Source: Saccharopolyspora gloriosae
Lineage (GTDB): Bacteria; Actinomycetota; Actinomycetes; Mycobacteriales; Pseudonocardiaceae
Reading direction: 5' to 3'
Length of the DNA: 64,000 nt
Assembly: GCF_014203325.1 (NCBI RefSeq)
Contig: NZ_JACHIV010000001.1
Span: 682,001-746,000 of the forward strand
Part shown: positions 5,083 through 62,148 of the stretch, piece by piece
Numbering within the stretch: position 1 is the first letter of the stretch
How the letters are laid out: each line of letters opens with the position of its first letter
The notes under the pieces: generated by a model
Database searches by the model: none
What the model was told of the DNA's origin: nothing
Seen by the model: only the letters and a program-made list of their open reading frames with translations
Made by a program: the position numbers and the translations under genes

Positions 5083-5131
5083 AGTGAACGGACCGCTTGT
5101 CCAACGGGATTGGTCGAACGGTCCGTTCACT
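5083..5131. repeat. 49-base palindrome, single copy, inverted loop
   Basis: A copy of the dispersed palindrome: arms start AGTGAACGGACCGCTTGTCC and end GGTCGAACGGTCCGTTCACT. The 5-base centre is CGGGA, the reverse complement of the TCCCG seen in the other copies, so this copy alone is in the opposite orientation. It sits between the divergent alkB and the SNase-like gene, where a simple terminator is not expected. Confidence 0.9.
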
Positions 5132-5291
5132 CTCGCGAAGTTGCCGGGCGGGCGGTAGAACGGCCGATCATCCGTGCCGGATGCTCTGTTTGCCGGAGTC
5201 GGGCGACACTGCGAGTGATCGAACCAGTACGGTGCGTCCTGTTGCGTCGCCTGGCGGGCAGGCGTTCCACATCTCGTGAACTGGAGCAGCG

Positions 5292-6446
5292 GTGCAGGAC
5301 TTGGTCCCCTTCCTGGGGTGCGGAGGCATGGGGCTGATGCTCTGGGGTGCTTGGTACGGGTTCTTCCGTCGGGGCAAGGGAGATCCGGCCGTGCCGCGGA
5401 ACTTCTGGATCCGCTTCGGCGTCGGCTACGCGTTGTTCGCCCTCGCGCTCACCGTTGACCCCGCGATTCCACTCGCCGACGCGTTGATCGGCCTGGTGTT
5501 CTTGACCGGAGTCGGAGTGCTGGGCTGGGGCGTCGCCTTCGGAGCGCGGCGGGTGGGCAGGCGGGGCCGTGGTGCGGCTCGCGGTTCTTTGACGAGGGCC
5601 GGGGTGGGGATCGCGCTGATGGCCCTCTCGTTCGCGCTCGTCCCGTTCGTGTCGACGGACGAACCGGAGGGCGGCTCGCGGCAAGCAGCGGCGGCGCCCG
5701 CGACGCCACTGCCGGACTCGCCCGCGCCCGTGCCGATTCCGCCCGAGTCGTCCCCGGTCGCCCCGGCCGGTGCGCCGCGCGATGCGCAGCAGGCCGTGGT
5801 GGTGTCGGTCGACGACGGTGACGAGCTCCAGTTGGCGGCGCACGCGGCCGGAACGATCCTCCCGAGCACCGACGCGGTCCGCGTGCGCTTGCTGAACATC
5901 GAAGCGACCGATCCCGGCGAGTGCTCGCACCAGGAATCCGTGGACCACCTGCGGGAGCTGGCTCCAGTGGGAAGCACGGTGTGGGTCCGGCATGATCAGC
6001 GGCCGCAGGACCAGGAAGGCCGGTTCTTGCTCCATGTCTGGAACGACTCCGGGGTGTTCACGAACAAGTCGATGGTCGCGGACGGGTTCGCGCAGGCCCA
6101 GGCCGACCACCCGAACACGACGCGCTGGTCCGAGATCGCGGCCGAGCAGCACTCGGCGCAGGCCCGGAGCGTCGGTGTCTGGGCCGAATGCCCGTACTTC
6201 GGTGCACCGGAATCGGGGGACCCGAGTCCGAAACCGCGCCCGAACCCGGAACCTGACCCGCGGCCGAGCCCGGAACCGAGCCCGGCCGAAACCTCGGACT
6301 CGGATTCGGCCGACGAAAGCGGCAGCGCGTATTACCGGAACTGCACGGCGGCGAAGAACGCCGGTGTCGCCCCGCTGCACCGAGGTGAACCTGGATACGG
6401 CTCGCACCTCGACCGGGACGGCGACGGCACCGCCTGCGAGAGCTAG
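5292..6446 (+). CDS. Membrane-anchored SNase-like nuclease with Excalibur domain
   Basis: A 384-residue protein built of three parts. Residues 1-125 contain three hydrophobic helices, then a Pro/Ala-rich linker. Residues about 165-305 resemble staphylococcal nuclease: VRVRLLNIEATDPGEC matches the strand with Arg35 and the catalytic Glu region, and DQEGRFLLHVW matches the GR loop with Arg87. After a Pro-rich linker (PSPKPRPNPEPDPRP) the C-terminus is an Excalibur calcium-binding motif, YRNCTAAKNAG...LDRDGDGTACES. It should be displayed outside the membrane and degrade nucleic acid, though activity is uncertain because the acidic catalytic position is shifted (EATD). The start ATG has no strong ribosome site; the first in-frame codons give a plausible membrane helix. 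Confidence 0.85.
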   Translation: MQDLVPFLGCGGMGLMLWGAWYGFFRRGKGDPAVPRNFWIRFGVGYALFALALTVDPAIPLADALIGLVFLTGVGVLGWGVAFGARRVGRRGRGAARGSLTRAGVGIALMALSFALVPFVSTDEPEGGSRQAAAAPATPLPDSPAPVPIPPESSPVAPAGAPRDAQQAVVVSVDDGDELQLAAHAAGTILPSTDAVRVRLLNIEATDPGECSHQESVDHLRELAPVGSTVWVRHDQRPQDQEGRFLLHVWNDSGVFTNKSMVADGFAQAQADHPNTTRWSEIAAEQHSAQARSVGVWAECPYFGAPESGDPSPKPRPNPEPDPRPSPEPSPAETSDSDSADESGSAYYRNCTAAKNAGVAPLHRGEPGYGSHLDRDGDGTACES

Positions 6447-6497
6447 CGGTTCGCGCGCGTGCACGAAACCGGCGCTCAGCAGTGGTAGTGGTTCGGA

Positions 6498-6970
6498 TTG
6501 CACGGTCCGCCGAGGTCCCGCCTTACGCGGGCGTCTCGCTGCTCGCCGTCCGCTTCGACAACGACGCTGTCCGCTGCACGCGCTGCCGGCTCCGCTGGTC
6601 TGGGACGGTGTGTCCGGGATGACGCTGCTCGGCGACGCGGCGCACCTCATGTCGCAGTTCGGTGGTTTCGGCGTGAACCTGGCGCTGCTCGATGCCGTGG
6701 AACTCGCCCGCGCGCTCGCTGGATCATCCACAGTGGACTCGCCGATCTTCCGCTGCGAGAAGATCATGATGGTCCGATCCGACCCGCTCGCAGGGGGGCA
6801 ACGAGGCTCTTGTCGACTTGTTCGCGCCCGAAGAGTGCGACCTGTCCGACATCCCCGACTGTGCGGAGGAGGAGCGTTGCTACAAGGAGTCCGTGGCCGA
6901 ATATCGCCGCGCCCACGTGGAATCCGCGCCGCGCCCGATCGACCAGCTCCGCGCGCTGCTGTCCTGGCCC
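6498..6970 (+). pseudogene. Remnant of FAD-dependent monooxygenase
   Basis: No intact gene occupies this stretch, but pieces of a flavin monooxygenase of the PHBH/TetX type survive in different frames. The clearest is MTLLGDAAHLMSQFGGFGVN, then LALLDAVELARALAG, around 6600-6720, which is the conserved GD motif and following helix of the family. Upstream, VPPYAGVSLLAVRFDN is in another frame at about 6510-6560. A third frame (6790-6970) reads LVDLFAPEECDLSDIPDC and continues open without a recognisable family. The central FAD/substrate region is missing and frames shift at least twice, so this is a decayed gene or fusion of fragments. Confidence 0.6.
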
Positions 6971-6974
6971 GGCA

Positions 6975-7547
6975 TCACGGGTGCAGGTGGGATCGCTGGC
7001 CGTCGTGGTCGAGGATGGTGAGGATCTCCGCCGGGCCGCCGTGGGCGCCGAAGGCGTGCGGGGTCATCGTGGAGAACTGGGCGGCCTGACCGGTTTCGAC
7101 GAGGATGGTCCGTTCGCCGAGCACCAGCAGCACCGTGCCGGACAGCACGGTGAACCAGTCCTTGCCGGGGTGCACGCCGAGCTTCCCGGAGTCGGGCGCC
7201 GGTGCCGGTTCGGTGAGGCGCATCTTGGCGACGGTCATCCCGTGCGGGCCCGAATCCTTGCTGAGCAGCCAGGTCGTGGCACCCCGGTTCTCGTCGTGCA
7301 CGGGCCGGATCACCACGTCCTCGTCGGTCGCCGATTCGACGAGCTGGTCGAGCGTCGTGCCCAGCGCGCGCGCCAGCGGCGCGAGCTGGTCGAGGCTGAT
7401 GCGCCGGTGCCCGGTCTCGATGCGGCTGAGCGTGGAGGTGCTCAGGTAGCAGCGCGTGGCCAGCTCGTCGAGCGACAGGCCGCGGGCCGTGCGCAGGCTC
7501 TTGATCCGCTGGCGGACCAGGGCGTCCAGATCTCCGTCTTGCTTCAT
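6975..7547 (-). CDS. XRE-family regulator with C-terminal cupin
   Basis: A 190-residue transcription regulator. Residues 8-65 form a helix-turn-helix of the Cro/C1 type (LDELATRCYLSTSTLSRIETG), and residues about 95-180 a small cupin barrel (LGVHPGKDWFTVLSGTVLLV) likely to bind a small ligand. This architecture is common in repressors of neighbouring metabolic genes. ATG at 7547 is preferred to an upstream start because it sits just before the HTH. It is divergent from a methyltransferase with only 47 bases between the starts, so it probably controls that gene and itself from the shared region, which includes the partial palindrome ATGGTATGCCAT (7556-7567). Confidence 0.9.
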   Translation of the reverse strand: MKQDGDLDALVRQRIKSLRTARGLSLDELATRCYLSTSTLSRIETGHRRISLDQLAPLARALGTTLDQLVESATDEDVVIRPVHDENRGATTWLLSKDSGPHGMTVAKMRLTEPAPAPDSGKLGVHPGKDWFTVLSGTVLLVLGERTILVETGQAAQFSTMTPHAFGAHGGPAEILTILDHDGQRSHLHP

Positions 7548-7594
7548 GCGCAAAATGGTATGCCATCGGAGCAAAGCGCGGCTAGCTTGGAGGC

Positions 7595-8443
7595 ATGGCA
7601 CACCACGAACACCAGCACTCCACCGCGGCCGACGACGCGACGCAGCTCGAGATGCTCGACCTCGACGCGGAAGTCCTGCACGAACACCTCGCCGAGATCA
7701 CCGCCTCGCTGCGTGAGCTCGCCGCACCACCCGTCCGCCGCGTCCTCGACCTCGGCAGCGGATCCGGCACGGGCACCTTCGCCCTGCTCGACGGTTTCGA
7801 GGCGGCCACCGCGATCGCCGTGGACGCCTCCGAGCCGATGCTGGCCCACCTCGCCGAGAAGGCCGCCGCGCGCGGCGTGGGCGACCGGGTCCGCACCGTG
7901 CAGGCCGACCTCGACGAATCGTTCCCGCGGCTCGACGGCCCCATCGACCTGGCGTGGGCCTCCGCGTCGATGCACCACCTGTCCGACCCCGCCCGCGTCC
8001 TGTCCGAGGTCTTCGCCGCCTTGCGCCCCGGCGGACTGCTCGCGGTGGCGGAACTGGAAGGCTTCCCGCGCTTCCTGCCCGACGACCTCGGCTTCGGGCG
8101 GCCCGGCTTCGAACAGCGCTGCCACGACCTGCTCGCCGCGAAGCGCGCCGAACACCTCCCGCACATCAGCGCCGACTGGCGGACGCTGCTGGCCGAAGCC
8201 GGATTCACCGTGGCGGCGGACCGGACCTTCGACATCCACCTGTCTGCGCCGCTACCCGCCGCGACCGCCCGCTACGCCGAGGTCACGCTGCGCCGCATGC
8301 ACCCGTTCCTCGCCGCCCGCCTCGACGCCGACGACGTGGCCACCCTCGACACCCTGCTCGCCGACGGCCCCGGCGGAGTCCTCCACCGCGACGACCTCGC
8401 GGTCCGCACCACCCGAACCTTCCTGGCAGCCACCCGCCCGTGA
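7595..8443 (+). CDS. Class I SAM-dependent methyltransferase
   Basis: A 282-residue methyltransferase with the Rossmann SAM-binding motif VLDLGSGSGTGTFALLD (about residues 49-65), the acidic post-I motif IAVDASEPML and motif IV region IDLAWASASMHHLSDP, typical of UbiE/Methyltransf_25 type enzymes. The His-rich N-terminus (MAHHEHQHST) is unusual and could bind metal. The substrate cannot be told from sequence. It shares its promoter region with the divergent XRE/cupin regulator, and an array of four palindromes follows its stop. Confidence 0.9.
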   Translation: MAHHEHQHSTAADDATQLEMLDLDAEVLHEHLAEITASLRELAAPPVRRVLDLGSGSGTGTFALLDGFEAATAIAVDASEPMLAHLAEKAAARGVGDRVRTVQADLDESFPRLDGPIDLAWASASMHHLSDPARVLSEVFAALRPGGLLAVAELEGFPRFLPDDLGFGRPGFEQRCHDLLAAKRAEHLPHISADWRTLLAEAGFTVAADRTFDIHLSAPLPAATARYAEVTLRRMHPFLAARLDADDVATLDTLLADGPGGVLHRDDLAVRTTRTFLAATRP

Positions 8444-8487
8444 AGCCGCATCCCTCCGAGGCGAGGTGACCGCCGAAAGCGATGTGG

Positions 8488-8870
8488 GGTGAACGGACCG
8501 TTCGTCCAATCCCGTTGGGCGAACGGGCCGTTCACTCGGTCCCGGAGCAGAGGCAGGTGGGTGCCCCGTCCGACCCATCCGGCGGCGACCGAGTTCGTGG
8601 ATGGAGTGAACGGACTGTTCGTCCGATCTGGTTGGGCGAACGGTCCGTTCACTCGTCGCTGGGTGCAGCGTGCTGGGTCGGTGGGGGTGCAGCTCGTGGT
8701 GTGAGGCGGGCGGGTTCGCGGCTCGGAGTGAACGGACCGTTTGCCCAATGCCGTTGGGCGGACGGTCCGTTCACTCAACGGCGGGTGGGCGGCGGCGTGC
8801 TGCGGGTGAGTTCGCGGCTGGGGTGAGCGGACCGTTCGTCCAGTCTCGTTGGGCTAACGGTCCGTTCACT
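8488..8870. repeat. Array of four 49-base palindromes
   Basis: Copies at 8488-8536, 8605-8653, 8727-8775 and 8822-8870, each with two 22-base arms and a 5-base centre (TCCCG, TCTGG, TGCCG, TCTCG). Start-to-start spacing is 117, 122 and 95 bases. The array fills most of the 561-base gap between the methyltransferase and the DUF4232 gene, which are codirectional. No coding region is supported here; open frames through it only reflect the repeat sequence. Confidence 0.95.
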
Positions 8871-9004
8871 CCTCCCCTGTGGTCGGCGGCCGGGACGTGG
8901 GTGGGCTTCGGGTTGCTTCGGGGTGGGGAAGCGCACTCGGGAGCATCCTCGGCGGTCGCGGGACGTCTTCAGGGGTGAGAAGCGAGTCGAGCTTGGAGGA
9001 CGAC

Positions 9005-9505
9005 ATGACCACGAAGTTCCGCCGCATCGCCGCCGCCACCGCCGTCGCGGGTGCCGCGTTCGGCATCACCGCGCTGACCGCGGGCCCGGCCGTGGCGAAC
9101 CCCAGCGACGCGCTGTGCACGAGCGACGACGTCAACGTCACGGTGACGAAGGACCCCGAGCACGCCGCCGGGCACGAGGCGTTCCTCGTCGACTACACCG
9201 CGGCGAGCCCGACGACGAACTGCAAGCTCCAGGGCGTCCCGGCCGGGGTGAGCTTCCACGGCGGTGAGGCTCCGATCCCGGGCGTGACGGTGAACCCGGA
9301 GTCGAGTCCCGCCGCGCCGGTGAACCTGACCGCGTCGAAGCCCGCGTTCTCGCGGTTCGTGCAGCAGACCGGGGCGCCGGCGAATCCGACCGTGCCGGCC
9401 TCCGTCGAGTTCGACCTGGAGAACGGGCACGTGGCCGCCGTGTGGCCCGCCGGGGAGTCGATCAAGGGCGACGTCCTGACCGCGACGCCGATCGCGCAGC
9501 GCTGA
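9005..9505 (+). CDS. Secreted DUF4232-like protein
   Basis: A 166-residue exported protein. A Tat- or Sec-like signal peptide begins MTTKFRRIAAATAVAG and ends with a predicted cleavage at AVA-NPSDA (about residue 30). The mature part resembles DUF4232, a beta-sandwich common in actinobacterial cell-envelope proteins, with two Cys (LCTSDD, TTNCKL) likely forming a disulphide and the phrase CKLQGVPAGVSF where the family usually has a CxLxGxP motif. ATG 9005 is chosen for the GGAGG ribosome site 6 bases upstream. No function is known for the family. Confidence 0.85.
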   Translation: MTTKFRRIAAATAVAGAAFGITALTAGPAVANPSDALCTSDDVNVTVTKDPEHAAGHEAFLVDYTAASPTTNCKLQGVPAGVSFHGGEAPIPGVTVNPESSPAAPVNLTASKPAFSRFVQQTGAPANPTVPASVEFDLENGHVAAVWPAGESIKGDVLTATPIAQR

Positions 9506-9568
9506 AACCGCAGGTGGCCGCGCGCTCACGACGAGCTCGATCACCTCGGGCACCCGGCGATGTCGCGG

Positions 9569-9617
9569 GGTGAACGGACCGTTCGTCCGATCCGATTGGA
9601 CGAACGGTCCGTTCACC
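9569..9617. repeat. 49-base palindrome, single copy
   Basis: One copy with centre TCCGA, between the convergent DUF4232 and P450 genes. The outermost base pair is G-C (starts GGTGAAC, ends GTTCACC) where most copies have A-T, a compensatory change that keeps the stem. Confidence 0.93.
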
Positions 9618-9660
9618 CCACGACGCGTTTCCGCCTGGAGGCAAGGGATAACGCGCGCGT

Positions 9661-10836
9661 TCAGCCCTTCGGCTCGGCGGGTTCGAACGTCACCGGCAGG
9701 TCGCGCAGGCCGCGGTTGCGGAACGACGGGCGCCAGCGCAGTTCGTCGGGGCGCGCCGCCGGCGCCAGGCCGGGCAGCCGCCGCAGCGCGGTCTCGAAAC
9801 CGACTTCGGCCTCCATCCGGGCCAGCGGCGCGCCCAGGCAGAAGTGCGCGCCGTGGCCGAAGGCGAGGTGCGGGTTGTCCGCGCGGGTCAGGTCCAGCGC
9901 GTCCGGGTCGGCGAACACCTCCGGGTCGTGCTGCGCCGACACCAGCGACAGCAGCACGGTCGCGCCCGCGGGCACCGTCACCCCGCCGATCTCGACGTCG
10001 GTGATGGGGAATCGGCGGATCGCCGTCTGCGGCGGCGGGTCGAAGCGCAGCAGCTCGTCCACCGCGGACCGCAGCAGCTCCGGTTCGGTGCGCATCGCGG
10101 TGAGCTGGTCGGGATGCGACAGCAGGGCGGCGAAGCCGTTGCCCAGCAGGTTCACCGTGTTCTCGTAGCCCGCGAACAGCATCAGGAACGCGGCGGAGGT
10201 CAGTTCGTCGGCGGAGAGCCGGTCGTGCTGGGCGAGCAGCGAGCTGATGAAGTCCTCGCCGGGATCGGTGCGCTTGGCGGCGACGAGTTCCAGCAGGAAC
10301 CGGTGCAGCGAGCGCAACGCTTCGCCCGCGGACTCGCGGGAGGTGGGCGCGAGCATCTCGTCGGTCCACGCGCGGAAATCGGGCCGGTCGGCCTGCGGGA
10401 CGCCGAGCAGCTCGGAGATCACCAGGATCGGCAGCGGTCCCGCGTAGGACGCGATCAGGTCTGCGGCGCCCGCCGGGGTGATCGCGTCGAGGAGTTCGTC
10501 GGCGATCTGCTGCACGCGGGGGCGCAGGTGGTGCACGCGGAACGCCTGCGCGGTGATCCGCCGCAGCCGGGTGTGGTCCGGGGCGTCCATGTTGAGCAGG
10601 TTCGCGTCGAGCTCCGGGGGCAGCGAGAACCCCCGGTAGCCGTCCCGCGCGTGCGCTTTGTCCAGCGACAGCCGCGGATCGGCCAATCCGGCGCGCACGT
10701 CCTCGTAGCGGGTCACCAGCCACACCTCGGTGCCGTCGGGGGTGATCGCCCGGTGCACCGAGCCCTGTTCCCGGAGCCGCGCGTACGTCGCCAGCGGCGC
10801 GGTCACGAACTCACCGCCGAGCTCAACTGCTCCCAT
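9661..10836 (-). CDS. Cytochrome P450 (CYP107-like)
   Basis: A 391-residue soluble bacterial P450. The I-helix oxygen-activation motif is FAGYENT (221-227), the ExxR pair is E261-R264 (DELLR), and the haem Cys is C333 in AFGHGAHFCLGAPLAR. The substrate is unknown; such enzymes hydroxylate macrolides, steroids or other small molecules with ferredoxin partners, none of which is encoded beside it. It starts 47 bases downstream of a molybdenum-hydroxylase FAD subunit on the same strand, so the three genes may be cotranscribed. A single palindrome follows the stop. Confidence 0.95.
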   Translation of the reverse strand: MGAVELGGEFVTAPLATYARLREQGSVHRAITPDGTEVWLVTRYEDVRAGLADPRLSLDKAHARDGYRGFSLPPELDANLLNMDAPDHTRLRRITAQAFRVHHLRPRVQQIADELLDAITPAGAADLIASYAGPLPILVISELLGVPQADRPDFRAWTDEMLAPTSRESAGEALRSLHRFLLELVAAKRTDPGEDFISSLLAQHDRLSADELTSAAFLMLFAGYENTVNLLGNGFAALLSHPDQLTAMRTEPELLRSAVDELLRFDPPPQTAIRRFPITDVEIGGVTVPAGATVLLSLVSAQHDPEVFADPDALDLTRADNPHLAFGHGAHFCLGAPLARMEAEVGFETALRRLPGLAPAARPDELRWRPSFRNRGLRDLPVTFEPAEPKG

Positions 10837-10883
10837 GCGGCGAATCTACGACACGTCCTCGCCCGCCCGGCGGCGACAAGCGG

Positions 10884-11693
10884 TCAGGCCCGGGAGTTCT
10901 CCAGAGCGCGCCGGACGAGGACGCGGGCGAGGTGGCGGCGGTAGTCGGCGGAGGCTGCGGGCTCGTCGGCGGGGGAGGTGCCGTCGGCCGCGCGCTCCGC
11001 GGCCTCGGCGAGCGGGGCACCGGCGGCCAGCGCGGTTTCGACGGCGGTGGCGCGCAGCGGCGTCGCGCCCATGTTCACCAGCGCCACCGCGTCCCCGGCG
11101 ACGGCGACGCCGACCACGGCCCAGTCGATGGCGCGGCGGGTGAACTTCTGGAAGTCCCATCCGGCGGTCTGCTTCGGCACCCGGACCTCGGTGATGATCT
11201 CGCCCGGTTCCAGCGCGGTTTCGAAGAAGTCCACGAAGAACTCCGCGGCGGGAACGTCCCGCGTCCCGTCGGGTCCGCGCAGCACCAGCACCGCGTCCAG
11301 CGCCAGCACCACCGCGGGCAGGTCGGCCGCCGCGTCGCCGTGCGCGAGCGATCCGCCGAGGGTGCCGCGGTGGCGGACCTGCGGGTCACCGATGGTGCCA
11401 GCGGCGTGCGCCAGCAGCGGCACCGCGCGGGCCAGCAGCGCCGAGTTCGCCAGGTCGTGGTGCCGGGTCAGCGCGCCGATCCGCACTTCGGGCCCCGCGT
11501 CCTCGACGAACGCGAGTTCGCGCAGCGCGGTCACGTCGACGAGCAGTTCGGGCACGGCGAGGCGCAGTTTCATCAGCGGCAGCAACGAATGCCCGCCTGC
11601 CAGCAGCTTCGCGTCGTCGCCGTGCTCGGCGAGCAGCCGCAGCGCGTCGTCCACGGATTCCGCGCGGTGGTAGGTGAACGCGGCGGGGATCAC
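10884..11693 (-). CDS. FAD-binding subunit of molybdenum hydroxylase (CoxM type)
   Basis: The medium, FAD-binding subunit of a xanthine or CO-dehydrogenase-like enzyme, 269 residues. The FAD motifs [15 protein letters not shown] (about residues 32-46) and [20 protein letters not shown] (about 100-119) are those of the CoxM/XdhB family. GTG at 11693 overlaps the upstream 2Fe-2S subunit stop by 4 bases. The partner large molybdopterin subunit is not present anywhere in the window, so the enzyme must use a subunit encoded elsewhere or the locus has lost it. Confidence 0.92.
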
Positions 11694-12157
11694 CGGGCGG
11701 TCTCCTCGCGCGAGGCGGTGAGCACCGAATCGACGATGTTCTGGTAGCCGGTGCAGCGGCAGAGGTTGCCCTCCAGGCCGTCGCGCACTTCCCGCTCGGT
11801 CGGTGAGGGGTTCTCCTGCAACAGCGACACCGAGGCCAGCACCATGCCGGGCGTGCAGAATCCGCACTGCAGGCCGTGGCACTCCTGGAAGGCCCGCTGC
11901 ACCGGGTGCAGCCGCTCGTCGGTGGAGAGCCCTTCGATGGTCGTGACGTCGTGCCCGTCGGCCTGCGCGGCCAGGACGGTGCAGGACTTCACCGACTCAC
12001 CGTCGAGCAGCACCGTGCACGCGCCGCACGAAGTGGTGTCGCAACCGGTGTTCGTGCCGGTCAGTCCGCAGGTCTCGCGCAGGAAGTGCACGAGCAGGGT
12101 GCGGTCCTCGACCTCGTGCCGTTGCTCGGTGTCGTTGACGGTGATCGTGACTCGCAA
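11690..12157 (-). CDS. 2Fe-2S subunit of molybdenum hydroxylase (CoxS type)
   Basis: Small electron-transfer subunit of 155 residues with two [2Fe-2S] clusters. The plant ferredoxin-like cluster is bound by the Cys of [14 protein letters not shown] and SVKSC, and the C-terminal helical cluster by CGFCTPGM and NLCRCTGY. Start TTG at 12157 gives the canonical N-terminus [12 protein letters not shown] and has AGGGAG upstream; no ATG or GTG fits. It is coupled to the FAD subunit downstream. As noted there, no large Mo-binding subunit is adjacent. Confidence 0.92.
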
Positions 12158-12311
12158 CCGGTGCTCCCTCGCGAAGACTGGCCGCCACCCTACCGGGAAA
12201 ACGGCGGATTTGATCAATTTTTCGTCCGTTGGCCATGCGTCGGAACGGCCCCGGCACATGCCTATACTGGTTATGACAGTCCGAGTGTCGTGATCCGCTG
12301 CGAGGTGTTCG

Positions 12312-32518: not shown

Positions 32519-32801
32519 AGTGAACGGACCGTCCGTCCAATCTCGTTGGACGAACGGTCCGTTCACTCATGCCAGGTGTCCTGCTCGGGCAGCCCTCCTG
32601 CGTGCCGCACCGCGCAACGGCACGGCGGTTTCTCGGAGTGAACGGACCGTCCGTCCAATCTCGTTGGGCAGACGGTCCGTTCACCCCGTGTCAGGTGTCC
32701 TGCCGAGCCCCGTGTGCGAGCAGCACTGGTACCGGGGCGTGACGGTTCCTGGAGTGAACGGACCGCTTGTCCAATCTGGTTGGGCAGACGGTCCGTTCAC
32801 T
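32519..32801. repeat. Array of three 49-base palindromes
   Basis: Copies at 32519-32567, 32637-32685 and 32753-32801, with centres TCTCG, TCTCG and TCTGG and start-to-start spacing of 118 and 116. The two spacers share the string CAGGTGTCCTGC near their left ends, showing that unit plus spacer was duplicated. The array lies between the convergent SRPBCC and P450 genes. Confidence 0.95.
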
Positions 32802-34227: not shown

Positions 34228-34503
34228 AGTGAACGGACCGTTCGTCCAATCCCGTTGGACGAACGGTCCGTTCACTCAGATCGGAGCCCCGCTGGCGGCC
34301 CCCGGGTGAGCCCAGATGCGGGTGGCGAGGTTTTCGAGTGAACGGACCGTTTGTCCAGTCACGTTGGTCGAACGGTCCGTTCACTCGGTTCGGAGCCCTG
34401 CTGACGGCTCGGGCGATCGGTGTGTTGCGGGGCGAGCGGGTGGTGAGCTTTGTGAGTGAACGGACCGTTTGCCCAGTCGCGTTGGTCGAACGGTCCGTTC
34501 ACT
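34228..34503. repeat. Array of three 49-base palindromes
   Basis: Copies at 34228-34276, 34337-34385 and 34455-34503, centres TCCCG, TCACG and TCGCG, start-to-start spacing 109 and 118. The two spacers both begin near TCGGAGCCC and continue with related GC-rich sequence, so they are duplicates. The array lies between divergent genes, the P450 and the PTH2-domain gene. Confidence 0.95.
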
Positions 34504-42299: not shown

Positions 42300-42830
42300 A
42301 GTGAACGGACCGTTCGTCCAATCCCCTTGGACGAACGGTCCGTTCACCCCACGTCGAGCACGGCCTCCGCACCGTCGGCTCCCGCTGCGATCCGGAGGCC
42401 GGATTGAGTGAACGGACTGTTCGTCCAATCCCGTTGGACAAGCGGTCCGTTCACTCCGAGAAGCTCCGCCGATCGGTGAGCGCTGCCGGAGTGGGGGCCG
42501 GGTTGAGTGAACGGACTGTTCGACCGATGCCGTTGGACAAGCGGTCCGGTCGCTGCGCGAAGCTCCGCGCCGATCAGTGAGCGTGGCCGTGGCCGGTTGA
42601 GTGAACGGACTGTTCGTCCAATGCCGTTGGACGAACAGTCCGTTCACTCGCATCGGCGTTCCGTCGCTGTGGCGCTGCGGTGTGCCGGGGACGGTGGGGT
42701 TTTGAGTGAACGGACCGTTTGCCTGATCTCGTTGGTCGAATGGTCCGTTCACTCCGGGGGAGCGAGGCGTGGCGCGGGCAGGGTGGGCGGACCGTTCGTC
42801 CAGTGCCGTTGGACGAGCGGTCCGTTCACT
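42300..42830. repeat. Array of six 49-base palindromes
   Basis: Copies at 42300-42348, 42407-42455, 42506-42554 (degenerate right end), 42600-42648, 42705-42753 and 42782-42830, spacing 107, 99, 94, 105 and 77. The copy at 42600 has ACT in the left arm and AGT in the right, a C-G to T-A compensatory change. The spacers before the third and fourth copies share GAAGCTCCGC and TGAGCG, showing local duplication. The array separates bioY from dinG, both on the minus strand. Confidence 0.96.
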
Positions 42831-55308: not shown

Positions 55309-55422
55309 CGGACCGCGGCTCTCGCGTGCGGGGGCTCGCGGTGGGCGGGAAGCCGACCGGCCCGCGCGCGAAAGCTGACACCATGGCCACCACCACCTCA
55401 CCAGCGGATCGGAGACCGCGAA

Positions 55423-55938
55423 GTGTCCACAGCAGACAGTCCGGCGAGCTCGGCGGTGCGGTTGCGCCCGCCTCGCCACCGCATCGAACGCAGAGCCATC
55501 GGCTGGTGGTCCGCGCAGGCCGCGACGCTGGTGTTACCGCCGCTGATCGCCCTCGCGGTGCTCGCCGCGCTGATCGCACCCGCCCGGCCCTGGTTGTTGC
55601 TGGGACTGGCCGCGGTGGCCGTGCTCGGCGTGCCCTACCTGGTCGTGATGCCGCAATGGCGCTACCGGGTGCACCGCTGGGAGAACACCGACGACGCCGT
55701 CTACACGGCCGCCGGCTGGTTGCGGCAGGAGTGGCGGGTGGCGCCGATGTCGCGGATCCAGACCGTGGACACCGTGCGCGGCCCGCTGCAGCGGATGTTC
55801 GGGCTCTCCAGCGTCACCGTCACCACGGCCTCGGCGGCCGGGCCGCTGCGCATCGACGGGCTCGACCACCGGGTGGCCGCCGAACTCGTCGACGTGCTCA
55901 CCGCCACCACGCAGGCCGCGCGCGGGGACGCGACATGA
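55423..55938 (+). CDS. Membrane protein with bacterial PH domain (YdbS-like)
   Basis: A 171-residue protein. Two helices (residues 28-75) are followed by a bPH2 domain: RYRVHRWENTDDAVYTAAGW, IQTVDTVRGPLQRMFGLSSV. GTG 55423 is used. Its stop overlaps the start of a larger PH-domain protein by 4 bases (ATGA), matching the ydbS-ydbT pair of Bacillus subtilis, which affects sensitivity to a bacteriocin-like factor. Molecular function is unknown. Confidence 0.9.
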   Translation: MSTADSPASSAVRLRPPRHRIERRAIGWWSAQAATLVLPPLIALAVLAALIAPARPWLLLGLAAVAVLGVPYLVVMPQWRYRVHRWENTDDAVYTAAGWLRQEWRVAPMSRIQTVDTVRGPLQRMFGLSSVTVTTASAAGPLRIDGLDHRVAAELVDVLTATTQAARGDAT

Positions 55939-57413
55939 CGGCGGCGACCGACTGGCGGCGGCTCGACGCCAAGATCGTGCTGGTGCTGCTGATCCTGGTG
56001 CTGGCACCGCTGATCCCGACCGCGGGCGTGATGCTCATCGCGGGGGCGAACCCGGTGGTGGTCGCCTCGATGTCCGGGATCTGGGCGGGCGCCGCCGCCG
56101 TGCTCACCGGGATGGCCGCGCTGGACTGGTGGTTCACCACCTACCGGATCAGCGACGAACGGGTGGAGCTGCGCAAGGGGGCGCTCTCGCGCAGCCACCG
56201 GTCGCTGCCCCGGGATCGCGTGCGCAGCGTCGACCTCACCGCCGACCCGGTGCACCGGCTGCTCGGGCTGTCCGTCGTGAAGATCGGCACCGGGGCCCAG
56301 GCGGACGGTGAGCTCAAGCTCGACGGCATCGCCCGGCCGGACGCGGAGCGGATCCGGGCGGCCCTGCTGCTGCGCGAGTCCACTTCGGACCCGGAAGCGG
56401 CGGACGGGGCGCTGGCCCGGTTGCGCCCGGTGTGGCTGCTCTACTCCGGCGTGACGATGTCGCTGATCCTGGCCGTGTGGGGCGCGATCGCCTCGGCGTT
56501 CGGCTCGTTCTCCGAGCTGTTCGTGAAATTCGGGCTGTACCGGGCGATCGGGGAGGAGTTCCGCGCGGTGCCGCTGTGGCTGGGCATCGGCGTTCCCGCG
56601 CTGGGGGCGGTGCTGATCGGGGTGCTCGGGTCGTTCCTGCTGTCGCTGGAGCTGTGGTGGAACTTCACGCTCACCCGGGAGTCCTCCGGGACGCTGCGGG
56701 TGCGGCGCGGACTGCTCACCAAGCGGTCGATCTCGCTGGAGGAGAAGCGGCTGCGCGGTGTCGAGGTGTCCGAACCGCTGCTGCTGCGCTGGACCCGCGG
56801 TGCCCGCACCAACGCGGTCGCCACCGGCCTCAGCGACACCAAGGACGGCAGCCAGCCGGACGCGAAGACGCTGCTGCCGCCCGCTCCGCGCGCCGAAGCG
56901 CGGCGGGTCGCCGCCGAAGTCCTAGGGGAGGACCGGTTCCCTTCCGAGGGCTTCACCGGGCATCCGGTCGCGGCGCTGCGCAGGCGGATCACCTGGGCGC
57001 TGCTGTCGGCGCTGCCGTTCGCGGCGGCGGCGATCACCTGCGCGGTGCTCGGCTGGATCCCCGCCGGACCGGCCGTGGCGGTGGTGGTGCTCAGCGCGCT
57101 GATCGCGGTGGCGTTCGGCGTCGACGCCTACCGGAACCTGGGGCACCGGCTGCACGGGCGGTACCTGCTCAGCAGGCGCGGTACCGCGGTGCGGCGGACC
57201 GTCGCGCTGCAGCGCGCCGGGATCATCGGCTGGCGGTTCGAGCAGTCGGTGTTCCAGCGCCGGTCCGGGCTGATGGACGTCGTCGCCACCACCGCCGCGG
57301 GTTCGGGGCGCTACGCGGTGCCGGACGTGCGCACCGGGGACGGTCTCGCGTTCGCCGACGAAGCGGTGCCGGAGTTGCTCGCGCCATTCCTCGAACCCGT
57401 TCCCGACGATTAA
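55935..57413 (+). CDS. Membrane protein with tandem bacterial PH domains (YdbT-like)
   Basis: A 492-residue membrane protein with three bPH2 repeats separated by paired helices. Repeats are visible as YRISDERVELRKGALSRSHR, LRVRRGLLTKRSISLEEKRL and YLLSRRGTAVRRTVALQRAG; each is followed by a SVDLTADPVHRLLG-like or equivalent strand. Coupled to the YdbS-like gene by ATGA. A strong terminator follows. Confidence 0.92.
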   Translation: MTAATDWRRLDAKIVLVLLILVLAPLIPTAGVMLIAGANPVVVASMSGIWAGAAAVLTGMAALDWWFTTYRISDERVELRKGALSRSHRSLPRDRVRSVDLTADPVHRLLGLSVVKIGTGAQADGELKLDGIARPDAERIRAALLLRESTSDPEAADGALARLRPVWLLYSGVTMSLILAVWGAIASAFGSFSELFVKFGLYRAIGEEFRAVPLWLGIGVPALGAVLIGVLGSFLLSLELWWNFTLTRESSGTLRVRRGLLTKRSISLEEKRLRGVEVSEPLLLRWTRGARTNAVATGLSDTKDGSQPDAKTLLPPAPRAEARRVAAEVLGEDRFPSEGFTGHPVAALRRRITWALLSALPFAAAAITCAVLGWIPAGPAVAVVVLSALIAVAFGVDAYRNLGHRLHGRYLLSRRGTAVRRTVALQRAGIIGWRFEQSVFQRRSGLMDVVATTAAGSGRYAVPDVRTGDGLAFADEAVPELLAPFLEPVPDD

Positions 57414-57528
57414 TACCGGAAGCAGGTAGGACCATTCGGGTGAGATGTGTTTCGCATTGAACCGGAACCAGCCAGGAAGCGGGCGGAAAGCAACCCGATC
57501 AGGAGATCAACTGCAGGATTAATCCGAC

Positions 57529-57580
57529 TTGAAGAATCGGAGCCGAGCGGGTGCGGATCGTGCCACCCGCTCGGTTCTTC
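57529..57580. terminator. Bidirectional terminator between convergent genes
   Basis: GAAGAA plus CCGAGCGGGTG pair with CACCCGCTCGG plus TTCTTC around a 10-base loop. The 11-base inner stem is perfect. It lies midway between the PH-domain gene and the DUF397 gene, with A-rich and T-rich flanks suited to both directions. Confidence 0.85.
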
Positions 57581-57633
57581 AGTTGGTTCCCGCGACGCGG
57601 CCGGTGCGGCCCGCGGACGCGGTCAAGCCAGGG

Positions 57634-57825
57634 TCAGCGGTCGAACTCGCCGCGCTTGAGGACTCCGAGGAAGTCCCCCCACCGCGCGGGGTCGACGGCG
57701 AAGTAGCCACCCGGTCGGTCCTTCGTATCGCGCACGCCGACGCGCCCGCTCCCGAAGCCGACCTCCACGCATTGCCCTTGGTGCGTGCTACGGGTGCTGG
57801 TCCGCCAACCCGTGAGGTATTCCAT
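57634..57825 (-). CDS. DUF397 small protein
   Basis: A 63-residue DUF397 protein: WRTSTRSTHQGQCVEVGF and VRDTKDRPGGYFAVDPARW are the family pattern. Such proteins pair with XRE/DUF5753 regulators in actinobacteria (BldB/AbaA/WhiJ-like systems) and often act on development or antibiotic production. It abuts the regulator gene immediately upstream. Confidence 0.93.
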   Translation of the reverse strand: MEYLTGWRTSTRSTHQGQCVEVGFGSGRVGVRDTKDRPGGYFAVDPARWGDFLGVLKRGEFDR

Positions 57826-58674
57826 CTACAGCTCTCCTATGCGCTCGTGAATCACTTGAATAGACCCTTCCGGGTCGATCGCGTGTGCGCGTAGATGGTC
57901 CATCATCGTCACGTATTTGGACAGCTCGTTATCTCGTTCGAGGTATAACCCGCCCACGTGGGTTTCCAGATAGACGACATCCGGATCCACGTGATTGGAG
58001 TAGCGCAGGATGACGAATGGACCTGCCTGCGCGGGATGCGCGCCCGCGTCCAGCGGCATGACCTGCAACGTCACGTTCGGCAGTTCCGCCAAAGTGAGCA
58101 AGTGCTCCAATTGGCGGCGCAGTACGGCCGAACCGCCCACGCCGCGCCGCAACGCCGTCTCGCCGATCACCGCCCACAGGTCCAAGGGCTGAGAGCCGGT
58201 GATCCGGTCCTGGCGCTGCATCCGCAGCTCCACGCGGCGCCCGATCTCCGGTTCGTTGGCCCGGATCAAGGTGGACTTGGTGATGGCGTAGGCGTATTCC
58301 GCGGTCTGCAGCAGGCCGGGGACGGCCTCCGACTCCCAGGTGTGCATGGACGAGGCCTCGGCCTCCAGCCCCACGTACGTCTCGTACCACTCGGGCAGCA
58401 CGTCGCTGTAGGAATGCCACCAGCCGCGCTTGCGCGCGTCCCTGGCCAGGTTGATCAATTGCTCGCGTTCGGCGCCGTTGACGGCGTAGAAGTCCAGCAG
58501 AGCGCTGACGTCCCCGATGGAGGGTGAGCGCTTCGCCGTTTCGAATCTGCCTATTTTCGCCTGGGTGCAACCGAGGTGGGTGGCGGCCTGCTGCTGCGTG
58601 ACCTCCGCCAGTCCTCGAAGCCTGCGCAGCTCCGCAGCGAGGCGGCGACGGCGCACGGTGGGACTCACTGTCAT
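57826..58674 (-). CDS. XRE regulator with DUF5753 domain
   Basis: A 282-residue WhiJ-like regulator. HTH in residues 15-65 (VTQQQAATHLGCTQAKIGRFE) and DUF5753 from about residue 100, with ESEAVPGLLQTAEYAYAIT and LPNVTLQVMPLDAGAHPA diagnostic. It forms a pair with the DUF397 gene that follows with no gap. Likely regulates itself or a morphological or metabolic target; ligand unknown. Confidence 0.93.
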   Translation of the reverse strand: MTVSPTVRRRRLAAELRRLRGLAEVTQQQAATHLGCTQAKIGRFETAKRSPSIGDVSALLDFYAVNGAEREQLINLARDARKRGWWHSYSDVLPEWYETYVGLEAEASSMHTWESEAVPGLLQTAEYAYAITKSTLIRANEPEIGRRVELRMQRQDRITGSQPLDLWAVIGETALRRGVGGSAVLRRQLEHLLTLAELPNVTLQVMPLDAGAHPAQAGPFVILRYSNHVDPDVVYLETHVGGLYLERDNELSKYVTMMDHLRAHAIDPEGSIQVIHERIGEL

Positions 58675-59012
58675 GGAGATCAGTGTCCACCCTGCGAACC
58701 GAGCGTCACCATCGTGTCACCCAACCGACATCCGCGCGGGCGGATTCGAGGAGTGTCCCCGGCCTCGATCAGCCCCGCCGGCGTGCTCGACGAGCGCCCC
58801 GCCGCCCGGTTCCGGCATCGGTTCCGCGCGGTCCGGCGGCAGGTCCCGGCGCGGGACCTGGCTTTCCCGGCCGACGCTCGCTCGGCTGCCAGATCGAGGC
58901 CGACGCGGGTGACCGGTCCGCACGAGTGCGGCATGCGCTCACGCAGAGCGACGAACCGGCCTACCGCGCCGAAACCGGCGCCCTGGGACGAGTGACGCCC
59001 ACCCGCCGACGG
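58675..59012. other. Intergenic region without a supported gene
   Basis: 338 bases between the XRE gene start and the poxB stop. Plus-strand reading near 58880-58990 gives GDRSARVRHALTQSDEPAYR, which looks protein-like but has no start or stop that makes a gene. Possibly a decayed fragment. Confidence 0.4.
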
Positions 59013-60746
59013 TCAAGGCCGCGGCACGTTGCGCAGGTTGCTGCGCGCCAGCTGCACCATCTTGCCCACCCCGCCGGAGAGCACCGTCCGGCTCACCGCC
59101 AGCGCGAAGCCTTTCACCTGGGTGCCGGTGATGCGCGGCGGAATGGACAGCGCGTTCGGGTCGGTGACCACGTCGACGAGCGCGGGCCCCGGATGCGCCA
59201 GCGCCCCCGCCAGCGCGTCGCGCACCTGAGCGGGCTGGTCCACCCGCACCGAATGGATCCCCGCCGCCGCGGCCACGGCCGCGAAGTCGATCGAATCGTG
59301 GTCGGTGCCGAAATCCGGCATGCCGTCCACCAGCATCTCCAGCTTCACCATGCCCAGCGAGGAGTTGTTGAACACCACCAGCTTCACCGGCAGCCGATGC
59401 GTGCGGAGGGTGAACAGGTCTCCCAGCAGCATGGACAACCCGCCGTCACCCGACATCGAGATGACCTGCCTGTTCCGGTCGACGACCTGCGCGCCGATCG
59501 CCTGCGGCAAGGCGTTGGCCATCGACCCGTGCACGAACGAGCCCAGCACCCGGCGGTGCTCGTTCGGCGTGACGTACCGGGCCGCCCACACGTTGCACAT
59601 CCCGGTGTCCACGGTGAACACGGCGTCCTCGGCGGCCAGGTCGTCGAGCACGTCGGCGACGTACTCGGGGTGGATCGGGACCTGGTTGTGCACGTTCGTG
59701 GTGTAGGACTCGACGACCTGCTCCAACTGGTCCGCGTGCTCGCGCAGCATCCGGTCCAGGAAGCTCCGGTCGGTCTTCTGGCGCAGCTTCGGCAGCACCG
59801 CCCGGATCGTCTCCCGCACGTCGCCCTGCACCGCCAGGTCCAGCACCGTGCGCCTGCCCAGGTGCGTCGGGTCGATGTCGACCTGGACGGTGTTGGCCTG
59901 CGGCAGGAAGTTGTCGTACGGGAAGTCGGTGCCCAGCAGCACCACCCGATCCGCCTTCTGCATCGCCTGCTGACAGGCGCCGTAGCCGAGCAGACCGCTC
60001 ATGCCCACGTCGTAGGGGTTGTCGTACTGGATCCACTCCTTGCCGCGCAGCGCGTGCCCGACCGGGGAATGCAGGGTGCCCGCCAGCTCCATCACCTCGG
60101 GGTGCGCGCCGCGGGTTCCCGCACCGCAGAACAACATCACCCGCTCCGCCGAGTTCAGCGACTCCGCGAGCAGTTCCACCTGCGTCGGCGAGGGCACCAC
60201 CGTCGGCGGCTCGGAGTGCACCGTGCCGCTGCCGGTGGGGCGAGCGGCCGACTTGTGCGCGACGTCGCCCGGCAGCACCAGCACCGACACCCCGCGGTGC
60301 CCGACGGCGGTCTGCATCGCGCTGCGCAGCAGTCGCGGCATCTGCTCCGGCTGCGAGAGCAGTTCGCAGAAGTGGCTGCACTCGTTGAACAGCTCCTCCG
60401 GGTGGGTCTCCTGGAAGAAGCCGGTGCCGATCTGCTCCGACGGGATGTGCGAGGCCAGTGCGAGCACCGGTGCACTGCTGCGATGCGCGTCGTAGAGCCC
60501 GTTGATCAAGTGCAGGTTGCCCGGCCCGCAACTGCCCGCGCAGACCGCCAGCCGCCCGGTGAGCTGGGCCTCGGCGCTCGCCGCGAACGCCGCCGCCTCC
60601 TCGTGCCGGACGTGCACCCATTCGATGCCCTCGGTGCGGCGGACCGCGTCCACCACCGGGTTGAGGCTGTCCCCGACGATCCCGTAGATCCGTTGCACGC
60701 CTGCTTGCACGAGCACTTCGATGAACTGGTCGGCCACGGTCGGCAT
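59013..60746 (-). CDS. poxB: Pyruvate dehydrogenase (quinone) / thiamine-diphosphate oxidase
   Basis: A 577-residue PoxB-type flavoenzyme oxidising pyruvate to acetate and CO2. ThDP binding is shown by the Glu in HVRHEEAAAFAAS (about residue 50) and the GDGGLSMLLGDLFTLR...NNSSLG motif, and VCAGSCGPGNLHLINGLYD matches the family. The C-terminal membrane/quinone tail is present (VSRTVLSGGVGKMVQLARS). ATG 60746 with GGGAGAG upstream. FAD residues are inferred from the family. Confidence 0.93.
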   Translation of the reverse strand: MPTVADQFIEVLVQAGVQRIYGIVGDSLNPVVDAVRRTEGIEWVHVRHEEAAAFAASAEAQLTGRLAVCAGSCGPGNLHLINGLYDAHRSSAPVLALASHIPSEQIGTGFFQETHPEELFNECSHFCELLSQPEQMPRLLRSAMQTAVGHRGVSVLVLPGDVAHKSAARPTGSGTVHSEPPTVVPSPTQVELLAESLNSAERVMLFCGAGTRGAHPEVMELAGTLHSPVGHALRGKEWIQYDNPYDVGMSGLLGYGACQQAMQKADRVVLLGTDFPYDNFLPQANTVQVDIDPTHLGRRTVLDLAVQGDVRETIRAVLPKLRQKTDRSFLDRMLREHADQLEQVVESYTTNVHNQVPIHPEYVADVLDDLAAEDAVFTVDTGMCNVWAARYVTPNEHRRVLGSFVHGSMANALPQAIGAQVVDRNRQVISMSGDGGLSMLLGDLFTLRTHRLPVKLVVFNNSSLGMVKLEMLVDGMPDFGTDHDSIDFAAVAAAAGIHSVRVDQPAQVRDALAGALAHPGPALVDVVTDPNALSIPPRITGTQVKGFALAVSRTVLSGGVGKMVQLARSNLRNVPRP

Positions 60747-61022
60747 GCGCTCTCCCGGTACGTCGGGTTGCTGGTTCCTCCCGTCTACGCGGGGCGGTGC
60801 GAGCCCGCAACTTCGTCGCAGGCCGGCGACCTGCCGTGCGCGGCAGGCCGACCCGTGGGCGTTTCCGGCGCGGGCGACCGCCGTGACGAAGGCGAGTGCG
60901 GGCCGTAGCACGACGTTCACCGCCCGTTCGGGGGAAAGGGGTAACGTCTCCCCTTCAGCCGACGATCACTCTGTAGTCGACGTCGACGAGTTCCTCGAAA
61001 ACCCAGCAGGGAAGGAAAAACG

Positions 61023-61184
61023 GTGAGCCTGCGCCTTTACACCGTTTGCGCGCTGTCCGTGACCGCCTCGGCATTGGCCGGGTTGTTGTTCGGTGGGTTC
61101 ATCGCCTCGGACGATCAGGATGAGGCCGTTTCCGTGAACACCGTCTCGCAGACGGTGCCGGAGACCGCACCTCGACTGCCCTGA
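61023..61184 (+). CDS. Small membrane or secreted protein (53 residues)
   Basis: A 53-residue protein opening with a hydrophobic segment (LYTVCALSVTASALAGLLFG) and ending with an acidic and polar tail (DDQDEAVSVNTVSQTVPETA). GTG 61023 is preceded by AGGGAAGGA at 8 bases, a strong site, in a purine-rich leader. The terminal residues could be a short signal peptide with an exported tail. No family recognised. Confidence 0.55.
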   Translation: MSLRLYTVCALSVTASALAGLLFGGFIASDDQDEAVSVNTVSQTVPETAPRLP

Positions 61185-61254
61185 TCCCGCGCGGCCTGGG
61201 CGGTCGGTGGCCGCCCAGGCGAACGGGGTCCTCCGCGTGGACTAACGTCGAACC

Positions 61255-61728
61255 ATGAGCGAACAGCAGCGACTCTCAGCGGGCGACGCCGCGCCCGACT
61301 TCTCCCTGCCGGACGCCGACGGCAAGACCGTGGCGCTGGCCGACTACCGGGGCCGGTCCCTGGTCGTCTACTTCTACCCCGCGGCGAGCACCCCGGGCTG
61401 CACCAAGGAGGCCTGCGACTTCCGGGACAGCCTGGCGGAGCTCGACGACGCCGGATTCGACGTCGTCGGCATCTCACCCGACAAGCCGGAGAAGCTCGCG
61501 AAGTTCCGCGACGCCGAAGGCCTCACCTTCCCGCTGCTGTCCGATGTGGACAAATCGGTGATGACCGCGTGGGGCGCGTTCGGGGAGAAGAAGAACTACG
61601 GCAAGGTCGTGCAGGGCGTGATCCGCTCGACCTTCGTCGTCGGCCCCGAAGGCAAGATCGACAAGGCGCTGTACAACGTCAAGGCCACCGGCCACGTCGA
61701 ACGCCTCCGCAAAGACCTCAACGTCTGA
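61255..61728 (+). CDS. bcp: Thiol peroxidase of the Bcp/PrxQ type
   Basis: A 157-residue peroxiredoxin reducing peroxides with thioredoxin. The peroxidatic Cys is C49 in AASTPGCTKEACDFRD and the likely resolving Cys is C54, 5 residues later, the PrxQ alpha-type pattern. LPDADGKTVALADYRGRSLV is the usual N-terminal strand. It ends in a good terminator; an array of palindromes follows. Confidence 0.96.
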   Translation: MSEQQRLSAGDAAPDFSLPDADGKTVALADYRGRSLVVYFYPAASTPGCTKEACDFRDSLAELDDAGFDVVGISPDKPEKLAKFRDAEGLTFPLLSDVDKSVMTAWGAFGEKKNYGKVVQGVIRSTFVVGPEGKIDKALYNVKATGHVERLRKDLNV

Positions 61729-61740
61729 CCCTCGCGACAA

Positions 61741-61774
61741 GGGGACGCCTCCACCCGGAGACGTCCCCTTTTCT
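61741..61774 (+). terminator. Intrinsic terminator after bcp
   Basis: GGGGACG pairs with CGTCCCC, with CCTCC/GGAG pairing inside, followed by TTTTCTC. It begins 12 bases after the stop codon. Confidence 0.85.
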
Positions 61775-61787
61775 CATGCCCGAACCA

Positions 61788-62148
61788 AGTGAACGGACCG
61801 CTTGTCCAATCCCGTTGGACGAACGGTCCGTTCACTCGGACTTCGCCACCCGCATGGCAGCACCGCACAGCGGGGAGGTTTTCGGAGTGAACGGACCGCT
61901 TGTCCAATCTCGTTGGACGAACGGTCCGTTCACTCCATCTCGCCTTACCTGGAGGCGCAGACGCGAGGTATCGGAGCGGGGGGCTTTCGAGGTGAACGGA
62001 CCGTTCGCCCAATCCCGTTGGTCCAACGGTCCGTTCACTCCAACTCGGCGTCGGCCGGCGGGGTGCGGAGGTGAGTGCGCGAAGCGGGGAGGTGTTCGGG
62101 GTGAACGGACCGCTTGTCCGATCCCGTTGGACGAACGGTCCGTTCACT
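61788..62148. repeat. Array of four 49-base palindromes
   Basis: Copies at 61788-61836, 61886-61934, 61991-62039 and 62100-62148, centres TCCCG, TCTCG, TCCCG and TCCCG; start-to-start spacing 98, 105 and 109. The first, second and fourth have the GCTTGTCC variant in the left arm. Two spacers end in related GGGGAGGTNTTCGG sequence. It lies between convergent bcp and TauE-like genes, behind a conventional terminator. Confidence 0.95.

Follow-up and report, generated by a model that had tools for sequence, protein, structure and literature searches.

Helically phased arrays of a REP-like palindrome at gene ends in Saccharopolyspora, densest in one conserved chromosome domain

The window analysed here is a 64,000-nucleotide stretch of the Saccharopolyspora gloriosae chromosome (positions 682,001-746,000 of a 6.83-Mb one-contig genome), in which a 49-bp palindrome occurs in 22 copies at seven intergenic sites. 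In this and other genomes of the genus the palindrome stands singly or in arrays, mostly close behind stop codons, neighbouring copies keep a constant rotation relative to one another on the DNA helix, and the copies are densest in one chromosome domain whose borders are conserved between species. We read them as a family of sequence-specific palindromic sites, resembling the repetitive extragenic palindromic (REP) sequences, that may act on double-stranded DNA, a reading to which we give about an even chance.

A search of the window for the palindrome arm with up to three mismatches found 42 matches where 0.02 were expected by chance, and each copy was then read. The outcome bore out a preliminary description made from the letters alone, which had listed 22 copies at seven intergenic sites and had taken the genome, rightly, for one of a Pseudonocardiaceae-like organism. 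By called genes and Pfam families, three of the sites are convergent (9569, one copy; 32519-32801, three; 61788-62148, four), two codirectional (8488-8870, four; 42300-42830, six) and two divergent (5083, one; 34228-34503, three). Start-to-start distances within the window arrays are 94-122 bp, plus a single 77. The centre is TNNCG in most window copies, pairing extends to 51 bp (G at position -1 pairs with C at +50), and in Saccharopolyspora each arm is itself nearly palindromic, the inner 13-bp palindrome being GAACGGACCGTTC. The copies are as follows.

5083..5131, reverse strand: copy 1, single and reversed, in the divergent gap between a 2OG-Fe oxygenase gene and an SNase-Excalibur gene; first copy of the dense domain, counted from the left
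8488..8536, forward strand: array of four, copy 1, in a codirectional gap 3' of a methyltransferase gene
8605..8653, forward strand: array of four, copy 2; arm match, read
8727..8775, forward strand: array of four, copy 3; arm match, read
8822..8870, forward strand: array of four, copy 4; arm match, read
9569..9617, no strand assigned: single copy in the convergent gap between a DUF4232 gene and a P450 gene; its centre, TCCGA, is compatible with either orientation
32519..32567, forward strand: array of three, copy 1, in a convergent gap, 18 bp past one stop codon
32637..32685, forward strand: array of three, copy 2; arm match, read
32753..32801, forward strand: array of three, copy 3, 8 bp off the opposite gene's stop codon
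34228..34276, forward strand: array of three, copy 1, in the divergent gap between a P450 gene and a PTH2 domain gene; both arms match the consensus
34337..34385, forward strand: array of three, copy 2; arm match, read
34455..34503, forward strand: array of three, copy 3; arm match, read
42300..42348, forward strand: array of six, copy 1, in a codirectional gap flanked by a DinG/YoaA-like helicase gene and bioY
42407..42455, forward strand: array of six, copy 2; arm match, read
42506..42554, forward strand: array of six, copy 3, with a diverged right arm
42600..42648, forward strand: array of six, copy 4, with ACT/AGT in both arms
42705..42753, forward strand: array of six, copy 5; arm match, read
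42782..42830, forward strand: array of six, copy 6, 14 bp past the helicase stop codon
61788..61836, forward strand: array of four, copy 1, in a convergent gap 3' of an AhpC/TSA gene
61886..61934, forward strand: array of four, copy 2; arm match, read
61991..62039, forward strand: array of four, copy 3; arm match, read
62100..62148, forward strand: array of four, copy 4, 9 bp off the TauE gene stop codon
5083..64000, no strand: in-window part of the dense domain (contig 687,083-918,399), which continues beyond the right window end

Beyond the window, copies were defined by at least 30 matched positions of the 44 in the arms (28 in genome G005, a more distant species), and the stretches first read from three genomes held 279 of them. 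In three species 98 arrays were compared with the called genes, and no overlap exceeded 8 bp. The genes came from a home-made caller that marked 69-88% of the sequence as coding and missed at least the Pfam-found gene at 5292-6446; owing to that omission the array at 5083, which is divergent, was scored as codirectional by the script, and it lies outside the distance counts. Those counts are limited to 80 arrays flanked on either side by a called gene no more than 700 bp away, the other 18 having more distant neighbours; 36 of the 80 stand in codirectional gaps, 35 in convergent and 9 in divergent ones. Of the 36 codirectional arrays, 35 are closer to the upstream stop than to the downstream start, with medians of 16 bp from the stop codon and 133 bp to the next start, and in 69% the stop is no more than 25 bp away, vs. 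19% with random placement; convergent arrays lie a median of 18 bp from stop codons. By the caller's genes, the S. gloriosae domain has 34 convergent gaps, 12 of them with arrays, 130 codirectional gaps, again 12 with arrays, and 34 divergent gaps, 3 with arrays. The palindrome is thus repeated in high copy number, intergenic and close 3' of flanking genes, as REPs are in the broad sense. Adjacent copies, those of unclear orientation omitted, mostly share orientation (same vs. opposite: 61/10 in S. gloriosae, 30/0 in G003, 13/5 in G002, 5/2 in G005), and the loop faces either way irrespective of gene strand (co+ 13/10, co- 8/4); a link of loop strand to transcription was rejected. Two genes came up at the margins of the calling: the window gene at 57826-58674 (HTH_31 and DUF5753) had a low score in the caller, and a 362-aa open reading frame (L115:12572-13660), matching no Pfam family and with palindrome pairs at both ends, was missed by it.

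Start-to-start distances between neighbouring copies cluster near 63, 73, 85, 95, 108, 119 and 130 bp. Across four genomes, 188 neighbour distances gave R = 0.409 at 11.3 bp, which none of 2000 jittered sets reached (highest value 0.249); when each of 87 arrays contributed a single distance, R was 0.445 vs. a 99.9% level of 0.351, and for S. gloriosae alone (46 arrays, one distance each) 0.423 vs. a 99% level of 0.384. For replication, period and phase were fixed from S. gloriosae and then applied to the other genomes with 5000 null sets, giving, for all distances, P = 0.006 in G003, 0/5000 in G002, 0/5000 in Saccharopolyspora sp. NFXS83 and P = 0.05 in G005, and per array 0.017, 0.0002, 0.0008 and 0.048, respectively. 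Phasing is present separately inside the dense domain (n = 68, best period 11.1 bp) and outside it (n = 50, best period 10.7 bp); distances from stop codon to palindrome (n = 101) have none. Individual S. gloriosae distances recurred to within 1 bp in the orthologous array no more often than under permutation (5 of 30 vs. 4.3 in G003, 4 of 17 vs. 3.9 in G002); thus the phase outlives the turnover of single distances, and the replicates are not mere inheritance. The spacing period is about 11 bp, not exact, and the data fix a constant relative rotation of neighbours without implying that they share a helix face. Such a period agrees with the in vivo helical repeat of 11.08-11.60 bp per turn given for lac repression loops in the available part of PMC1762422, and with the in vivo loop spacing of about 11 bp in that of PMC8501960. 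Phasing is a property of duplex DNA, which argues for protein-mediated action between neighbouring copies, and it backs the suggestion of the preliminary description that a DNA-level function is worth considering with evidence that the description did not contain.

In S. gloriosae the number of copies per 20 kb is 0 from 600 to 680 kb, 3-16 from 680 to 920 kb and 0 from 920 to 940 kb, so that a domain of 231 kb holding 97 copies runs from a first copy at 687,083 to a last array end at 918,399. The corresponding domains extend from 5,220,574 to 5,420,594 in G003 (61 copies) and from 5,655,330 to 5,870,693 in G002 (65 copies), making the size 200-231 kb across three species, between which neither border shifts by more than one gene. 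Judged from orthologous genes, all three domains have their left border next to the gene at 686,340 and their right border at the gene at 918,400; in G003 and G002 the gap beyond the latter gene is occupied too. The flanks that were read had no copies (109 kb in S. gloriosae, 40 kb in G003, 144 kb in G002), nor did 11 further 20-kb intervals of S. gloriosae, including 4.40-4.42 Mb, which form the unbiased set outside the domain, other outside regions having been picked for known hits. A full listing of one half of the exact pattern (the K-pattern) in S. gloriosae gave 81 distinct sites, of which 32 fall inside the 231-kb domain, a roughly 19-fold higher density than outside. With dnaA at 6,469,614 in S. 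gloriosae, 880 in G003 and 895 in G002, the domain lies 0.92-1.27 Mb from it.

A common theme in gene content was sought and rejected among 20 proteins (17 in the domain, 3 outside), which include cytochrome oxidase, LysRS, IlvD, encapsulin and a nonribosomal peptide synthetase. A link to rRNA operons was rejected as well: the middle of the domain has one operon in G003 (5.311 Mb) and one in G002 (5.755 Mb), while the S. gloriosae sequence is N near 805 kb, which would hide a fourth operon. The other three G003 operons (1.04, 4.27 and 4.78 Mb) do not coincide with the dense run of hits listed. The encapsulin gene, inside the dense domain at L115:8234-9649, encodes a Family 2B shell protein.

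Where orthologous gaps could be compared, the arrays of S. gloriosae are shared in 13 of 14 with G003, 7 of 7 with G002 and 3 of 9 with G005, and array copy number differs between orthologous gaps. Similarity between orthologous spacers does not exceed that of random pairs (11.9 vs. 11.9; 12.6 vs. 12.9), whereas spacers inside one array are more alike than those of different arrays (13.2 vs. 9.6). The copies themselves differ less from non-local copies of their own genome than from the orthologous array in G003 (5.87 vs. 6.90 differences, the former closer in 38 of 48) and in G005 (6.07 vs. 12.15, 13 of 13); in G002 the trend is not clear (6.02 vs. 6.61, 13 of 28). Positions are thus shared while copies resemble others of their own genome, indicating that the places are kept as the copies turn over or become homogenised. 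Alignment of four orthologous gaps for a clean insertion and empty site met sequences too diverged to show a target-site duplication.

The palindrome belongs to a real family extending well beyond the window. A strict pattern matched in all six genomes of the genus and in none of 35 other relatives, and a search of a contig database with the palindrome returned 34 matched stretches, all from NFXS83. A covariance model matched at E ≤ 0.001, among at most the best 150 candidates per genome, in 45 of 150 genomes of the family, 39 of them outside the genus. Those of its hairpins that were read share a template across genera: GAACGG (mostly preceded by G and a variable base), then a genus-specific block (for example ACCG, CACT, AACT, ACTG or ACCA), then TTC and a short loop, after which the mirror image follows. 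The loop on one strand is CGGGA in 68 of 176 S. gloriosae copies and CTAGA in 27 of 61 G003 copies, and, judged by eye, NNRGA describes many loops of other genera. Three other repeats were seen along the way: a second, unrelated repeated 44-bp palindrome of the GCGTGAGCCTTTT...AAAGGCTCACGC type in G018, also at gene ends (L184:15631-15674, L185:13896-13939, L186:17381-17424, L188:3198-3241); two copies of a palindrome made of GGTTTCGCGCGAAA units in G010 (L191:6244-6289, L193:14513-14556); and, in G042 (L095:1059-1600), a run of short palindromes of about 20 bp of the GGTTGAACGGWCCGTTCAACC type, as though the repeating unit were half of the 49-bp element.

The searches made turned up no existing name for the element. 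Rfam gave no match in the window at gathering score (one array had seven matches far under it, mostly to microRNA models), and in the open-access literature, to which these searches were confined, we found no description of the palindrome. Arm pieces of 13 and 15 bases occur in no paper of the full texts searched, and those of 11 bases occur in eight papers, of which seven concern animals, people or plants by title and the eighth a mapping tool. The available part of PMC3610266 has nothing on these repeats, the main text of PMC3733652 makes no mention of Saccharopolyspora, Amycolatopsis or Actinobacteria, and a search combining REP, RAYT and Actinobacteria returned no papers.

The preliminary description had pointed to arm variants conserved as pairs, at 42600 and 9569, and had taken them as a sign of selection for pairing. 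These examples are real, but the conclusion does not follow from covariation, which shuffled arms match in the window and in the sums for three genomes. Among the 22 window copies, pairs changed on both sides number 5 vs. 3.4 in shuffles (71 of 500 shuffles reach 5), and paired cells amount to 95.7% vs. 95.3% (reached by 140 of 500). Summed over 22 pairs, 136 oriented S. gloriosae copies have 2610 Watson-Crick cells vs. 2608.9 (reached by 235 of 500 shuffles), and covariation is likewise absent in G003 (1014 vs. 1019.0) and G002 (633 vs. 636.6). Single positions in S. gloriosae deviate both ways, with an excess at positions 3, 4, 10 and 12 (131 vs. 129.1, 127 vs. 125.4, 108 vs. 99.4 and 122 vs. 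119.1) and a deficit at positions 16 (80 vs. 87.2) and 18 (58 vs. 63.5). Across genera, the variable block has three positions at which two or three types of pair occur, with complementary bases in 19, 20 and 19 of 20 hairpins; these were hand-chosen from ten genomes among hairpins selected by pairing, which biases the counts, and they may be taken as supportive but biased evidence for arm pairing.

Among known systems the closest likeness is to REPs of the GTAG and CGTC superfamilies, which are also repeated extragenic palindromes near 3' ends, in singles and groups (PMC3733652 and PMC2817692, in the parts available). The part of PMC3733652 concerned places REPs of convergent gaps within about 20 bp of both 3' ends and those of codirectional gaps near the upstream 3' end, singly and in groups, and describes REPs clustered in blocks in one genome, that of T. 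roseum. REPs are, however, 20-40 bp long vs. 49 bp here; many REP families stand in opposite orientation, whereas the arrays here run head to tail and in phase; and the present palindrome has one domain, with borders conserved between species, no unpaired tag and no RAYT in the S. gloriosae genome. As to a GTAG/CGTC tag, the flank profile is informative only at the mutually paired G at -1 and C at +50, other flank positions having less than 0.4 bit. Bacterial interspersed mosaic elements (BIMEs) of Escherichia coli are likewise arrays of intergenic palindromes that are known or suggested to bind proteins and to act on topology, BIME-1 binding IHF and BIME-2 gyrase (PMC2817692, in part), but their units alternate in orientation.

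Regional concentration of sites has other precedents. The matS sites of MatP are concentrated in the Ter macrodomain of E. coli, and the palindromic ram sites of RacA are clustered in one chromosome region of Bacillus subtilis, a sporulating bacterium. The ram sites share the regional clustering of palindromes and differ in sequence and length. The matS sites share the concentration in one chromosome domain; here, though, the domain lies about 1 Mb from dnaA and many K-pattern sites fall elsewhere, so that the palindrome is not confined to one macrodomain, and the MatP model PF06303 matched in none of the six genomes of the genus (the E. coli control matches).

Position behind stop codons is equally expected for an RNA hairpin, and the strongest competitor is that the palindrome is transcribed and, without a U-tract, ends or protects the mRNA of the preceding gene, in both directions in convergent gaps. 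The placement of 35 of 36 codirectional arrays nearer the upstream stop, the many convergent arrays (35 of 80), a median hairpin ΔG of -35.0 kcal/mol (about -41 for the consensus) and arms that change together across genera all suit it, and like placement of REPs has been taken as a sign of RNA function (PMC3733652, in part). The palindromes resemble intrinsic terminators as stable hairpins 3' of stop codons, bidirectional in convergent gaps, but at least five T in the eight bases behind the hairpin, on either strand, occur in only 1 of 301 copies, in agreement with the earlier view that a plain terminator is insufficient, and terminators lack the conserved sequence and phased arrays seen here. 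Gene ends outside the domain bear other hairpins of comparable strength (median -33.9, n = 54, vs. -39.5, n = 35, with the element), sequence is conserved rather than pairing alone, with no covariation of arms inside genomes, and 9 of 80 arrays are divergent. Helical phasing between copies has no place in this account and the domain is left unexplained by it; we consider it unlikely, if still to be taken seriously.

We put distinctly lower the probability that these are non-autonomous mobile repeats (REP-like, or like miniature inverted-repeat transposable elements), decaying or still spreading and with no present function, whose local spread made the dense region and whose copies gene conversion homogenises. 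High copy number with relatives across the family, the closeness of copies to others of their own genome in G003 and G005, the species-specific centres (CGGGA vs. CTAGA), the head-to-tail neighbours and the likeness of spacers within arrays would all follow from it, but positions are conserved at a median protein identity of 87%, where spacers are saturated, and neutral spread is not expected to yield phasing or fixed domain borders. Mobilisation by a RAYT was rejected: in a PF01797 search, with controls matched, the Y1 transposase is absent from four of the six genomes of the genus, S. gloriosae included, and of the three matches in the other two only L048, an IS200/IS605 element with Y1_Tnp and OrfB_IS605, lies beside a palindrome, a single one, L049 and L050 having none. 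That element (G005, L048:1332-3127) adjoins a palindrome whose two arms differ in type. Very improbable, in our estimation, is that the GAACGGACCGTTC palindrome of each arm is the operator of a TetR-type dimer controlling nearby genes: the near-palindromic arms of Saccharopolyspora and the G042 arrays of single palindromes of about 20 bp favour it, but the arrays avoid starts and are often in convergent gaps, and many hairpins of G018, G056 and G089 keep the large palindrome with the inner one broken.

Under our preferred reading, of REP-like sites acting on duplex DNA, arrays of one to six sites sit mostly directly behind stop codons, where they spare promoters, and the fixed rotational phase of neighbours would let a protein bind several sites cooperatively or bridge them. 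Such assemblies could shape the chromosome or relieve supercoiling, most of all in the conserved domain about 1 Mb from dnaA, which may be physical; the putative binder would have an architectural or topological function, as a nucleoid protein or gyrase has. A fixed-border domain is explained neither by REP-like placement nor by RNA function alone, and the boldest reading considered is a domain-marking or topological role. We entertain, tentatively and as something short of probable, that the phased arrays, bound by a putative protein, define and organise the 200-231 kb domain in at least three species, with a logic like that of matS and MatP, using REP-like sites at gene ends whose copies and spacings turn over as position and helical phase are kept. 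Several observations weigh against these proposals. The binding protein is a postulate, and phasing could reflect array growth rather than function. The best period varies (10.7 bp outside the domain, 11.1 inside, 11.35 in G003, 12.05 in G002), and the smoothed spacing peaks are uneven, with an extra one at 77.5. Arrays occur in gaps that are empty in S. gloriosae (two in G003, one in G005), 49 of the 81 K-pattern sites lie outside the domain, and in G005 just 22 copies were counted over the 320 kb surrounding the orthologous region.

The function of REP-type palindromes is a decades-old matter of debate. The present family combines placement, helical phase and a conserved, sharp-edged domain, so that a role in DNA architecture can be tested directly in a genus with antibiotic producers. 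Should the domain prove physical, it would represent a macrodomain-like system that does without MatP. The array map is a source of strain markers and of bait for pulling down the putative binding protein.

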